Assembly (NCBI RefSeq): GCF_028532725.1
Contig: NZ_JAQKGU010000002.1
Coordinates: 248,001-312,000, forward strand
DNA from: Desulfovibrio sp. Fe33
GTDB lineage: Bacteria > Desulfobacterota > Desulfovibrionia > Desulfovibrionales > Desulfovibrionaceae
Length of the DNA stretch: 64,000 nt
Direction of reading: 5' to 3'
Below the pieces are notes generated by a model. That model was not told where the DNA came from and made no database searches. It saw only the letters and a list, made by a program, of their open reading frames with translations. A program made the translations under genes and the position numbers. Shown here one piece after another: positions 12,760-15,506 of this stretch (the stretch's first letter is position 1; each line of letters begins with the position of its first letter).

Positions 12760-13500
12760 CTATTCCCGGCTTGCGGAGTCGCGCTTTGTCCGGGCAAGGA
12801 CAAGAACGTCCACTCCGGCGCAGCCCGCGTGCAGGAGGGTTCGGGCGCATTCCCGCAGGGTTGACCCGGTCGTGTAGACATCGTCCACCAGGAGCACCCG
12901 CCTGCCTTCGACCCTGTCCGGGTTGGCGGCGAAGGCTCCTTTGATGTTGGTTTGACGCTCCTTGAAACCGAAGCTGGTTTGGGGCGGGGTGTTCCGGGTG
13001 CGTTCAAGGCCGTCGAGCAGAAGGGGGCGTTTCAGCCGCCGGGCCAGCCCCCGCGCGATTTCGGCGCTCTGGTTGAAGCCGCGCCAGGCGAGCCGCCTGC
13101 CGTGCAGGGGCACGGGAACCACTGCGTCGGGAGTGCGCGCCCGGCGCGCCTCGAAGGCCTCGATTCCCAGCGTGGCCAGGAGCCGGTTGCGGTCGTACCT
13201 GTTTCCGAATTTGTAGCCGATGATGAGTTCGCGCATCCGCCCCGCATAGGGACCGTGAAAATAGAGTTCGTCCCAGGGCGGCGGTTCCAGCCGGCAATCC
13301 GGGCACTGACAGGGCGGGTCGCTTTCCCGGCCGGACATGGTGCCGCATGTCGGGCACAGGCCGCCGATGCGCAAGGGCAGTGCCCCGGCGCAGGTTTCGC
13401 ACAGCGCGCGCGAGCCGTCCGCCATGACGGTGCCGCATACGGGGCAGCGTCCGGCCCCCAGGCCGAGTCCCCGGAAAAGGCGCAGGATTGTTTGGCGCAT
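12760..13500 (-). CDS. ComF-family phosphoribosyltransferase-like protein
   Basis: 246 residues. Two N-terminal zinc-binding cysteine clusters (CPVCGTVMADGSRALCETC, then CPTCG...CQCPDC) precede a C-terminal PRTase domain with the PRPP loop RVLLVDDVYTTGSTL. This is the ComF/GntX arrangement, linked in other bacteria to DNA uptake or macromolecule use; the actual reaction is not settled. It lies 7 bases after the flavodoxin-like gene and may be the last gene of that operon. Confidence 0.88.
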   Translation of the reverse strand: MRQTILRLFRGLGLGAGRCPVCGTVMADGSRALCETCAGALPLRIGGLCPTCGTMSGRESDPPCQCPDCRLEPPPWDELYFHGPYAGRMRELIIGYKFGNRYDRNRLLATLGIEAFEARRARTPDAVVPVPLHGRRLAWRGFNQSAEIARGLARRLKRPLLLDGLERTRNTPPQTSFGFKERQTNIKGAFAANPDRVEGRRVLLVDDVYTTGSTLRECARTLLHAGCAGVDVLVLARTKRDSASRE

Positions 13501-13507
13501 GGACTCG

Positions 13508-14119
13508 TCAGGCTTCTTCCAGGGCAGAAATCCAGGCCCGTTCGCCCAGCTCCGCGATGCGCCGTCCGGCGTCGGATTCGACGTGGAGGTCGTCGCGGGT
13601 GTCCAGTCCCCTGAACGTCAGGGGGGCGGCCAGGTCCATGTTGAAATTCTGCACGAAGTATTTGAGCGTCAGCCGCGCTCCCTCGAAGAGCTTTTCCCCG
13701 GAAGGCTGGCCTGCGACGAGGACAGCATGGGCCGTGCGCCGGGGCAGGTCCGCGATCCACGGCTCCTTGTCGAGTCTGGCCCGCCAGAACTGCTGGCCCC
13801 GGTCTATCCACACCTTGAGCCGGGACGGCAGGTGGTAGAAGTAGATGGGCGAGGCGAAGAGGATGGTCCGCGCGGTCAGACAGGGGGTGAACAGGTCCCA
13901 GGCCTGGTCCTTCGGTCCCAGGACGCATCGCTCGATTCCCTGCCGGTCGGCGACGTCGCAGTAGCCGCAGGCCAGGCAGGGAATGACCTCGTGGTTGCGT
14001 ACATAGTAGACATCGGCCTCGCCCCCGGCCCGGCGCACGCCTTCGGCCAGAAGTTCGGCGGCCCTGTCGGAGTTCCCTCCTCGGCGGTGGGAGCAGGCGA
14101 AGACGGCGGCTCGGGGCAT
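13508..14119 (-). CDS. Flavodoxin-fold NAD(P)H-dependent FMN reductase-like protein
   Basis: 203 residues. The N-terminus ACSHRRGGNSDRAAEL is an FMN phosphate-binding loop, followed by IPCLACGYCD with a Cys pair and then ILFASPIYFYHLPSRLKVWIDR, the usual second flavin-contact segment of this family. These proteins pass electrons through FMN, often to an iron-sulfur or disulfide partner. The ATG at 14119 directly follows the stop of the probable selenoprotein gene, and the operon also holds a nitroreductase and a metallo-hydrolase, so a shared redox or detoxification task is likely (inference). Confidence 0.85.
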   Translation of the reverse strand: MPRAAVFACSHRRGGNSDRAAELLAEGVRRAGGEADVYYVRNHEVIPCLACGYCDVADRQGIERCVLGPKDQAWDLFTPCLTARTILFASPIYFYHLPSRLKVWIDRGQQFWRARLDKEPWIADLPRRTAHAVLVAGQPSGEKLFEGARLTLKYFVQNFNMDLAAPLTFRGLDTRDDLHVESDAGRRIAELGERAWISALEEA

Positions 14120-14362
14120 TTACGGCTCCTTGTCGTATACCGGGTTCTTTCTGGTCATGACCGCCCTGGCGTGGTCCTCGAATTCTTCGATCTCGAAGGC
14201 CCAGTCCGGGAAGACATGTTCCTCGTGGCGGACCTGGGAGACTCCCCTGAGGGATATCAGGGCTTCAATCCTGTCGGTCCGGGCAAAACGGAGGTACCAA
14301 CCTACCTCCAGTCCCACCCCTCAACACTTGTCGCGGATGTCGATGCGTACGGGTTCGCTCAT
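14120..14362 (-). CDS. Probable small selenoprotein (UGA read as selenocysteine at codon 14), function unknown
   Basis: If the in-frame TGA at 14323-14321 is read as Sec, a continuous 80-residue protein begins MSEPVRIDIRDKC-U-G and runs without a stop to 14120. Its start is 2 bases after the metallo-hydrolase stop, and its end abuts the flavodoxin gene, so the gene exactly fills the gap in a tight operon. A perfect 7-bp hairpin (GGAGGTA/TACCTCC, loop GGTTGG) begins 11 bases after the TGA with its loop 18 bases from it, as expected for a bacterial SECIS element. The Cys-Sec pair suggests a redox centre. The rest (WYLRFARTDRIEAL, FPDWAFEIEEFEDHA) matches no family I know. An alternative GTG start right after the TGA lacks a properly spaced ribosome site. 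Confidence 0.65.
14290..14309 (-). promoter_or_regulatory. Candidate bacterial SECIS hairpin
   Basis: Perfect 7-bp stem with a GGTTGG loop, inside the coding region downstream of the in-frame TGA. Spacing of 18 bases from TGA to loop and G at the first loop positions fit published bSECIS rules (16-37 bases, G in the first two loop positions). The E. coli fdhF-type bulged U is not evident. Confidence 0.55.
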
Positions 14363-14364
14363 CG

Positions 14365-14985
14365 CTAGAATCCCCCGAAGAACGGGTTGTGGTTGCGCTC
14401 GTCCCCGACCGAGGTTTCCGGTCCGTGGCCGGACAGCAGCCGGGTCTCGGGCGGCATGGTGAATATGTGTTCGTTGACAGACCGCTTGAGCGCTTCGATG
14501 TCCCCGCCCGGGAAGTCGGTGCGGCCTATGGAGCGGTAGAAGATGAGGTCGCCCACGAAGGCGGCACCGGCGTCCGGGAAGTGGAATGTCAGGCTGCCCG
14601 GCGAATGCCCGGGCGTATGGAGGACGCGGCAGGCCGCTCCGGCGAAGACGGTTTCGCCCTGTTCGAGGTTTTGCCATTTGTAGGGAGCGATGGACGGCAG
14701 GCCCATGTCTCCGCCCGCGCCCAGCCAGTTGTCCAGAAGGTAGCCGTCCGCGTCGTTGGCCATGACGGGCGCGCCCGTGGCGTCGGAAAGAGCCTTGTTG
14801 CCCGCGGTGTGGTCGAAGTGCAGGTGCGTGTTCAGGATGACGGTCAGGGTCAGCCCCTCGTTTTCAAGGTGCCTGAGTACGGGCCCGGGATCGCCGCCGG
14901 GGTCCACGACCAGGGCTTCCTTGCCGTTGGCCAGCACGTAGCAGTTGGTTTGCAGGGGGCCCAGGGGGAAGGTGGCTATATTCAT
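14365..14985 (-). CDS. Metallo-beta-lactamase-fold hydrolase (glyoxalase II-like)
   Basis: 206 residues. Carries the binuclear metal motif NTHLHFDHTAG (HxHxDH), the later metal ligands in HTPGHSPGSL and FVGDLIF, and a C-terminal LLSGHGPET histidine. This is the YcbL-type short glyoxalase II-like group, cytosolic thioester or related hydrolases. The start at 14985 (MNIATFPLGPLQTNCYVL) shares one base with the nitroreductase stop. Longer in-frame upstream sequence is an antisense-type Arg/Pro-rich shadow of the nitroreductase and is rejected. Confidence 0.92.
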   Translation of the reverse strand: MNIATFPLGPLQTNCYVLANGKEALVVDPGGDPGPVLRHLENEGLTLTVILNTHLHFDHTAGNKALSDATGAPVMANDADGYLLDNWLGAGGDMGLPSIAPYKWQNLEQGETVFAGAACRVLHTPGHSPGSLTFHFPDAGAAFVGDLIFYRSIGRTDFPGGDIEALKRSVNEHIFTMPPETRLLSGHGPETSVGDERNHNPFFGGF

Positions 14986-15506
14986 TAAAAGTCCTCCAGC
15001 ATCAGTTCGGAGAGAGGTTTGCGGGTGGATTCGCCCTTCTGGTCGGGGCGTCCCAGGGCGATGACGGCCTGGAGTTCGAGTTCGGACTCGGAAAGCCCGA
15101 GGGCCGCCAGGGTCGTGGGCTGGTCGTTGACGATCTGGCCGAGCCAGACCGCGCCGAGCCCCAGGGCGTGAGCGGCGAGAAGCATGTTCTGGATGCACGC
15201 GCCCGCTCCCTGGTGGTCCTTCATCTCGCTGTACATGGCCGCCTTTTCGAGCAGCACGCATACGCAGGCGGCCGAAGAGCGGACGATGCGCGCGTATTTG
15301 GTGCATTCGGCCAGCTTATCATGGCGCGGGTCCTCGCGGGCGATTACCATGAATCGCCATGGCTGGTTGTTCAGGCCGCTGGGCGCCCACCGGCCCGCCT
15401 CAAGGATGGCTGCGAGCTCCTCACGGGCCACAGGATCGCCTGTGAACCGGCGGATGGAGCGGCGTTCGCGCATCGCATCGAGTACCGGGTTGTCATGTAA
15501 GTCCAC
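14985..15506 (-). CDS. Nitroreductase-family FMN oxidoreductase
   Basis: 173 residues, the compact form of the family. Visible: RRSIRRFTGDPV (FMN phosphate contacts), EAGRWAPSGLNNQPWRFMVI, and LGLGAVWLGQIVND near the C-terminus. Such enzymes reduce nitro compounds, quinones or flavins with NAD(P)H. It starts with GTG at 15506 behind AAAGGAG. First gene of a tight operon with the metallo-hydrolase, the probable selenoprotein and the flavodoxin-like protein. Confidence 0.92.
   Translation of the reverse strand: MDLHDNPVLDAMRERRSIRRFTGDPVAREELAAILEAGRWAPSGLNNQPWRFMVIAREDPRHDKLAECTKYARIVRSSAACVCVLLEKAAMYSEMKDHQGAGACIQNMLLAAHALGLGAVWLGQIVNDQPTTLAALGLSESELELQAVIALGRPDQKGESTRKPLSELMLEDF

Follow-up and report, generated by a model that had tools for sequence, protein, structure and literature searches.

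The described proteins closest to the one studied here are TusA/SirA/YhhP (PF01206; PDB entries 3lvj, 3hz7 and 1dcj) and TsuB/YeeD (PDB entry 8k1r), which have the same size and predicted topology. Features in common with the TusA-type carriers are an acidic-x-Arg motif near the active site and, probably, the placement of the reactive chalcogen residue in the loop preceding helix α1. Unlike TusA, the present protein has selenocysteine (Sec) instead of cysteine and Cys-Sec-Gly instead of Cys-Pro-x-Pro, contains a strongly conserved Trp54 and mostly a Trp22, matches no Pfam family and is encoded in a different operon.

With the CU-motif selenoproteins CopZ-like form 2, SaoC, KCU-star and MbdU, as described in the catalogue of PMC13188914, the protein shares the Cys-Sec pair and bacterial Sec insertion, but these belong to different families; three of the four have NCBIfam accessions, to which no significant match is observed here. 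The Sec-containing DsrE-like and YeeE/YedE proteins of the same catalogue likewise place selenium in sulfur-traffic proteins, but their domains differ (PF02635 and PF04143). Table 1 of this 2026 review comprises 119 prokaryotic selenoprotein families, including families from papers by Haft cited there, and none of the entries is TusA-like; families without an NCBIfam model were compared with the selenoprotein by name and motif only. Relative to this catalogue, the family described below would be the first selenoprotein family with a TusA-like fold. The sections consulted of PMC1794560 give eight D. vulgaris selenoproteins, none of them TusA-like, and those of PMC9312934, PMC1914089 and PMC11124144 contain no TusA-like protein with Sec; literature searches for a Sec TusA protein returned none among their listings. 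According to the available sections of the deep-Sep paper (PMC12013277), families lacking Cys homologues may escape its method, and Desulfomicrobium orale is given with 0 new and six 'known' selenoproteins. Nearly all-Sec families are a blind spot that methods depending on Cys homologues can miss.

Identification of the gene

The window, i.e. the whole stretch of 64,000 nucleotides of Desulfovibrio sp. Fe33 DNA that was analysed, contains on the minus strand an 80-residue open reading frame (14362 to 14120) with a single in-frame TGA at codon 14. The frame consists of an ATG (14362–14360) followed by 12 codons, the TGA (14323–14321), 66 codons and a TAA stop codon (14122–14120), and translates as MSEPVRIDIRDKCUGVGLEVGWYLRF...YDKEP, with Sec as residue 14 directly after Cys13. 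It starts 2 bases after the end of the upstream gene (14365) and runs right up to the downstream gene, whose ATG (14119) directly follows the stop codon. An initial annotation, made from the sequence itself, had proposed that reading the lone TGA as Sec gives a full 80-residue protein, starting 2 bases after one gene and ending directly before the next; the reading frame bears this out and the coordinates agree, while the strand is added here. Because of the stop codon inside, the gene is easily overlooked. It almost certainly encodes a small selenium-containing protein that is common to many sulfate-reducing bacteria, and on the comparative sequence evidence below its status as a genuine selenoprotein is near certain in silico.

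The annotation had also recognised no known family for the protein, in agreement with searches of Pfam, NCBIfam and PDB sequences, which assign the window protein to no family, and with the 119-family table. A profile of 53 members gives two chance matches in the PDB (E 0.9), scans of members against Pfam give scattered matches at E 0.006 or worse, which were taken as chance, and NCBIfam contains no significant match for any of 73 members (best chance matches at E 0.06 or higher).

Conservation of the TGA codon

Homologues are present in 35 of the 36 genomes of the same genus, and all 35 contain an internal TGA, a degree of conservation that places the Sec reading beyond chance. The genome without a detectable homologue is G013. 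With a profile built from 28 genus sequences, matches are found in 83 of 149 genomes of the family and in 136 of 247 genomes of the class, the genus, family and class sets being overlapping; a TGA lies inside the best match in 83/83 and 135/136 of these, respectively. The profile is not biased towards TGA, since it has Cys at the Sec position. These counts refer to a TGA anywhere inside the match, and its exact place was read in fetched loci: 30 from the genus, 34 far loci picked for diversity among TGA-bearing matches, and 36 named loci, with some genomes represented twice. When the part after the TGA was used alone as query in a scan of the genome collection, 43 stretches matched and 36 loci were confirmed, every one of which (36/36) has a TGA immediately before the match. 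Named carriers include Pseudodesulfovibrio, Solidesulfovibrio, Nitratidesulfovibrio, Humidesulfovibrio and Desulfonatronovibrio. In a phylum-wide search of 297 genomes the genus profile matched four, each belonging to the same family.

The sequences on both sides of the TGA evolve as protein-coding DNA. Comparison of 28 genus loci with the window reveals 119 third-position substitutions before the TGA, against 64 and 27 at the other two codon positions, and 690 after it, against 402 and 287. The usual motif is C-U-G-V/L-G, in which the Cys13-Sec14 pair is almost invariant (one member, L117, has Gly instead of Cys13). Homologues ending at the TGA would have spoken against the initial proposal; the 100 sequences compared all run on as a conserved protein, where these represent 71 distinct 39-mers with duplicates between sets and a bare 13-residue homologue is undetectable by such searches. 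At 21 of the 30 genus loci the reading frame is itself terminated by a TGA; a single mRNA would there contain UGA in both meanings, as Sec codon and as stop codon.

The hairpin downstream of the TGA codon

A bSECIS-like hairpin, GGAGGTA-GGTTGG-TACCTCC, is located on the minus strand at positions 14290–14309, with a 7 bp stem and a 6 nt loop (14302–14297) that begins 18 nt after the TGA. When the 54 nt from the TGA onward are folded, only 1 of 200 dinucleotide shuffles is as good (z = −2.38). The seven stem pairs are formed in 70, 64, 71, 64, 70, 67 and 53 of the 71 distinct 39-mers. For 26 chosen sequences 97.8% of the cells are paired and the covariation score is 0.200, compared to 0.111 for shuffled alignments, none of 500 being as high. 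Alignments in which the hairpin is slid are all lower in pairing and covariation score, one of them showing more pair types than the hairpin itself (4 versus 3). Two of the five covariation measures for the 26 sequences do not exceed the shuffles, namely pairs changed on both sides (305/500 as high) and further pair types (500/500), because five of the seven pairs never vary. The perfect hairpin at bSECIS distance noted in the initial annotation thus recurs in the 71 distinct sequences and covaries.

At the Val/Ile position encoded within the stem, 66 of the 100 sequences (duplicates included) use GTA or ATA; in six window genes these are minority codons (GTA 10 of 93 Val codons, ATA 7 of 77 Ile codons). 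A hairpin with G/U in the loop directly downstream of the TGA holds for the Desulfovibrionia-type members, and in those with a CUH motif (L100, L102, L105 and L106) the stem is less regular. An Rfam scan of positions 13900–14500 at E ≤ 5 returned a sub-threshold Actino-pnp match alone, which was discarded.

Selenocysteine machinery and cysteine-containing forms

The window genome encodes SelB (389 bits), SelA (610 bits), SelD (333 bits) and a tRNA-Sec with anticodon tca (79.6 bits), so that selA, selB, selD and the tRNA gene, whose presence the initial proposal implied, are all there. The SelD match (G000:C1:315169-316098) contains one in-frame TGA, and for this reason SelD is probably itself a selenoprotein.

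Cysteine at the Sec position is confined to divergent paralogues. Two of these (L082 and L086) read D-L-R-D/E-V-C-C-G-L-V-P and two others (L083 and L085) retain the second Cys only; when the Cys paralogues and the Sec family are aligned as profiles (hhalign), the probability is 98.8%, the alignment spans the entire domain and Cys falls on Sec. The window genome carries such a paralogue (T-C-G-L-V-P; G000:C8:13477-13725, L191 and L216) directly downstream of mnmE, an arrangement present in two of eight genomes checked (the window genome and G054, L083). Homologues with neither Sec nor Cys at position 14 had been named as a point against the initial proposal. The divergent paralogues keep Cys there, but one of the 136 class genomes departs from the expectation: L081 (G273; 2190-1975, minus strand) lies in the usual operon and has Cys-Pro-Cys in place of Cys-Sec-Gly. 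Judged from its sequence, L081 is a natural loss of Sec, with Cys one residue later.

Occurrence in a second class of Desulfobacterota

A wider profile (53 rows) matches eight of 395 phylum genomes, six of which are of the same family. The other two are G554, which reads I-D-S-R-K-D-C-TGA, and G323, a match without TGA that appears to be due to chance. Although G554 was found through one weak match (E 0.002, wide profile), 22 of the 46 genomes in its class match and 22/22 have the TGA; the search profile includes the G554 match itself, and its E-values lean that way. C-U is read in all 20 second-class loci fetched. Alignment of the second-class profile (A9) with that of the window family (A2, from which L098 and L102 among the 34 far loci L087–L120 were left out) by hhalign gives a probability of 96.5%, with Cys-Sec aligned on Cys-Sec. 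Together with the TGA in all 22 genomes, this supports membership of the second class independently of the biased profile. With 35 of the 36 genus genomes and a second class, the bacterial selenoproteome gains one family.

The second-class hairpin is of a different type, GCGTA-GGNC-TACGC, and for one member (L212) the folding of the 60-nt hairpin region is not distinguishable from that of shuffles (z −0.59, 60/200 as good). At the 20 loci (L218–L237) no match to the neighbour genes of the window is found, the flavoprotein included; in flanks of ∼1.5 kb a dus-type gene is near 17 and an agmatinase-type gene near 14 of them. Several second-class members appear by eye to have a lipoprotein-like in-frame leader upstream.

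Predicted structure and relation to TusA

An AF2 model was calculated from an alignment of the window protein with 34 of the 36 named loci (alignment A5, with L128 and L146 left out and four long tails cut), and has a pLDDT of 93.7 and a pTM of 0.82. The predicted topology is β-α-β-α-β-β, with strands at residues 5–9, 31–36, 54–60 and 65–71 and helices at residues 16–26 and 38–50. In VIA-align, which re-aligns the top 1000 chains of Foldseek, the best row is the SirA-like protein 3hz7 (Z 9.7, rmsd 2.0, 69 aligned residues), followed by TsuB (8k1r and 8j4c; Z 9.5 and 9.2) and TusA (3lvj and 3lvk; Z 8.6 and 8.2). After these five TusA/SirA rows come Smr as the first other fold (Z 7.9) and the TusA protein YhhP (Z 7.8). 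The margin is modest, as the tool's own remark puts the best Z of models without a clear match typically at 7–8. Foldseek itself gives no match at E ≤ 0.001, with SpoVS first (E 0.011) and TusA at rank 11. On the basis of the model, a TusA/SirA-like fold is very likely.

At the sequence level the links to TusA are weak. With the HMMER filters applying, Pfam TusA (PF01206) matches 0/53 and 0/20 members at E ≤ 10, and the Cys-Pro-x-Pro motif is not found in the family, the Cys paralogues having C-G-L-V-P. Aligned with TusA by hhalign, the window family reaches a probability of 11%, the second class 1.4% and the Cys paralogues 36%, the last of these alignments having the reactive residues in register. 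A four-row Cys-paralogue profile run on the 395 phylum genomes gives 10 weak matches that are neither paralogues nor Sec proteins (E 1.5e-4 to 8e-3), of which eight contain DARGLxCPxPV, the motif of TusA; of the other two, one is unrelated and the second has a truncated flank. Within the range aligned by VIA-align (model 1 on TusA 6), Sec14 would, if ungapped, fall on Cys19 of E. coli TusA, which we take to be the number of its active cysteine. Topology, aligned range and this weak profile bridge together make it probable that Sec occupies the position of the TusA active cysteine. The selenoprotein probably works in the manner of TusA and may be a distant relative, but we do not assign it to the TusA family.

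Gene neighbourhood

The genes around the Sec gene, all on the minus strand, are those of a compact run. Its first gene (14985–15506) encodes a nitroreductase-family protein (Pfam Nitroreductase over cut-off) and the next (14365–14985) an MBL-fold hydrolase of the glyoxalase II/persulfide dioxygenase superfamily (Pfam Lactamase_B over cut-off; the best NCBIfam models, GloB and Blh, are each below their own cut-off). Downstream of the Sec gene lies a flavodoxin-fold FMN reductase of the iron-sulfur-flavoprotein type (13508–14119; Pfam FMN_red over cut-off, no NCBIfam match), the likely partner, in which the four cysteines of the motif CX2CX2CX(7-11)C are invariant in 29/29 aligned sequences and Cys9 is present in 26/29. 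It is followed by a ComF-type phosphoribosyltransferase-like protein (12760–13500; Pfam Pribosyltran over cut-off, NCBIfam comF below cut-off), probably a bystander. These Pfam matches agree with the order given in the initial annotation, i.e., between a metallo-hydrolase and a flavodoxin-like reductase, after a nitroreductase.

Neighbours were counted if they lay on the same strand and no more than 2.5 kb away; loci whose flanks were too short are omitted from the denominators. For 30 loci out of the 35 genus matches the counts are 28/29 for nitroreductase, 30/30 for MBL, 30/30 for flavoprotein and 30/30 for ComF, the former two upstream and the latter two downstream of the Sec gene. For 33 far loci (L117 was dropped, its Sec gene being undetected by BLAST) the corresponding counts are 16/32, 27/33, 28/33 and 27/33, and for the 36 named loci 17/33, 22/34, 28/36 and 25/32. 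The flavoprotein is not near the Sec gene in eight named loci, five of the 33 far loci and the 20 second-class loci. The operon is thus not universal, and the flavoprotein may not be an obligate partner.

Proposed function and alternative explanations

The comparative evidence suggests that SelB would read the UGA at codon 14 as selenocysteine by means of the hairpin just downstream. The product would be a small single-domain, presumably cytoplasmic protein with the predicted TusA/SirA-like fold, in which strand β1 and helix α1 flank the Cys13-Sec14 pair, probably at the site of the TusA active cysteine. The selenol could act as a nucleophile, taking up sulfane sulfur (Se-S) or forming a selenosulfide, and the iron-sulfur-type flavoprotein encoded next to it could supply the electrons that restore it; the MBL-fold hydrolase and the nitroreductase are putative pathway partners. 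Such a protein may serve sulfate reducers as a sulfane-sulfur or redox shuttle, and would offer a testable entry into selenium use in their sulfur traffic. We assign a probability of about 55% to this explanation as a whole, that is, to a TusA-like selenoprotein acting as sulfane-sulfur or redox carrier with the flavoprotein. Cooperation of the carrier with the flavoprotein, taken by itself, is tentative and somewhat short of even odds; we infer it from gene order, and the link is missing in two groups. The selenium-dependent redox step suggested in the initial annotation is a plausible hypothesis. An unlikely variant is a selenium-based chalcogen carrier: in sulfide-rich cells, which have to distinguish selenium from sulfur, the TusA-like protein would bear sulfane sulfur or selenium on its Sec (Se-S/Se-Se) and hand it to the Fe-S-type flavoprotein or to SelD, in the latter case possibly filling the vacant role of physiological selenium donor.

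Several other readings of the locus can be compared with the proposed carrier. The protein could be a plain thiol/selenol redox enzyme acting through its vicinal Cys-Sec pair, for which the TusA-like fold is a mere scaffold and sulfur carriage plays no role. The near invariance of Cys13-Sec14 fits such an enzyme, but vicinal Cys-Sec rings are strained, and Cys13 is replaced in L117 and in two of the four aligned Cys paralogues, which keep the Sec-equivalent Cys; the pair is thus not strictly needed. As flavin and probable Fe-S neighbours are also in its favour, and most uncharacterised selenoproteins are likely redox proteins according to the sections consulted of PMC13188914, this enzyme is a substantial contender, if clearly below even odds. 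A chaperone that binds a soft metal ion or selenium at the Cys-Sec pair and passes it to, e.g., SelD or the flavoprotein would parallel the CU motifs of HgcA, SaoL and MbdU in the table of that review, but is improbable, as none of those flanking ORFs that could be assigned is a metal-transport or sel gene.

The absence of read-through, with a leader ending at the TGA and a second ORF restarting downstream, is the least probable of these readings, with hardly any weight left to it. A GTG at 14317 would indeed open a frame of 65 aa in the window, and 23 of the 29 other genus loci likewise have GTG at this codon. However, 18 of the 100 sequences have no ATG, GTG or TTG in the nine codons after the TGA, protein conservation extends to the residues ahead of the TGA, the hairpin is conserved, and the Cys paralogues run through the Sec position. 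Re-initiation and pseudogene readings were rejected on the third-position substitution bias on both sides of the TGA and on these missing start codons.

Variation among family members

Members of the Nitratidesulfovibrio type (L146, L148, L149, L152 and L154) have a Gly/His-rich C-terminal tail such as GGGRHTGGHGKE, which is possibly metal-binding. Named loci without MBL, flavoprotein and nitroreductase neighbours (L136–L139, L141, L142, L150 and L151) are mostly from Solidesulfovibrio. At five of these (L138, L139, L142, L150 and L151) a protein of 90 aa, MDWKL...VAELGDKTQLA, presumably UPF0016-like, is encoded just upstream of the Sec gene instead.
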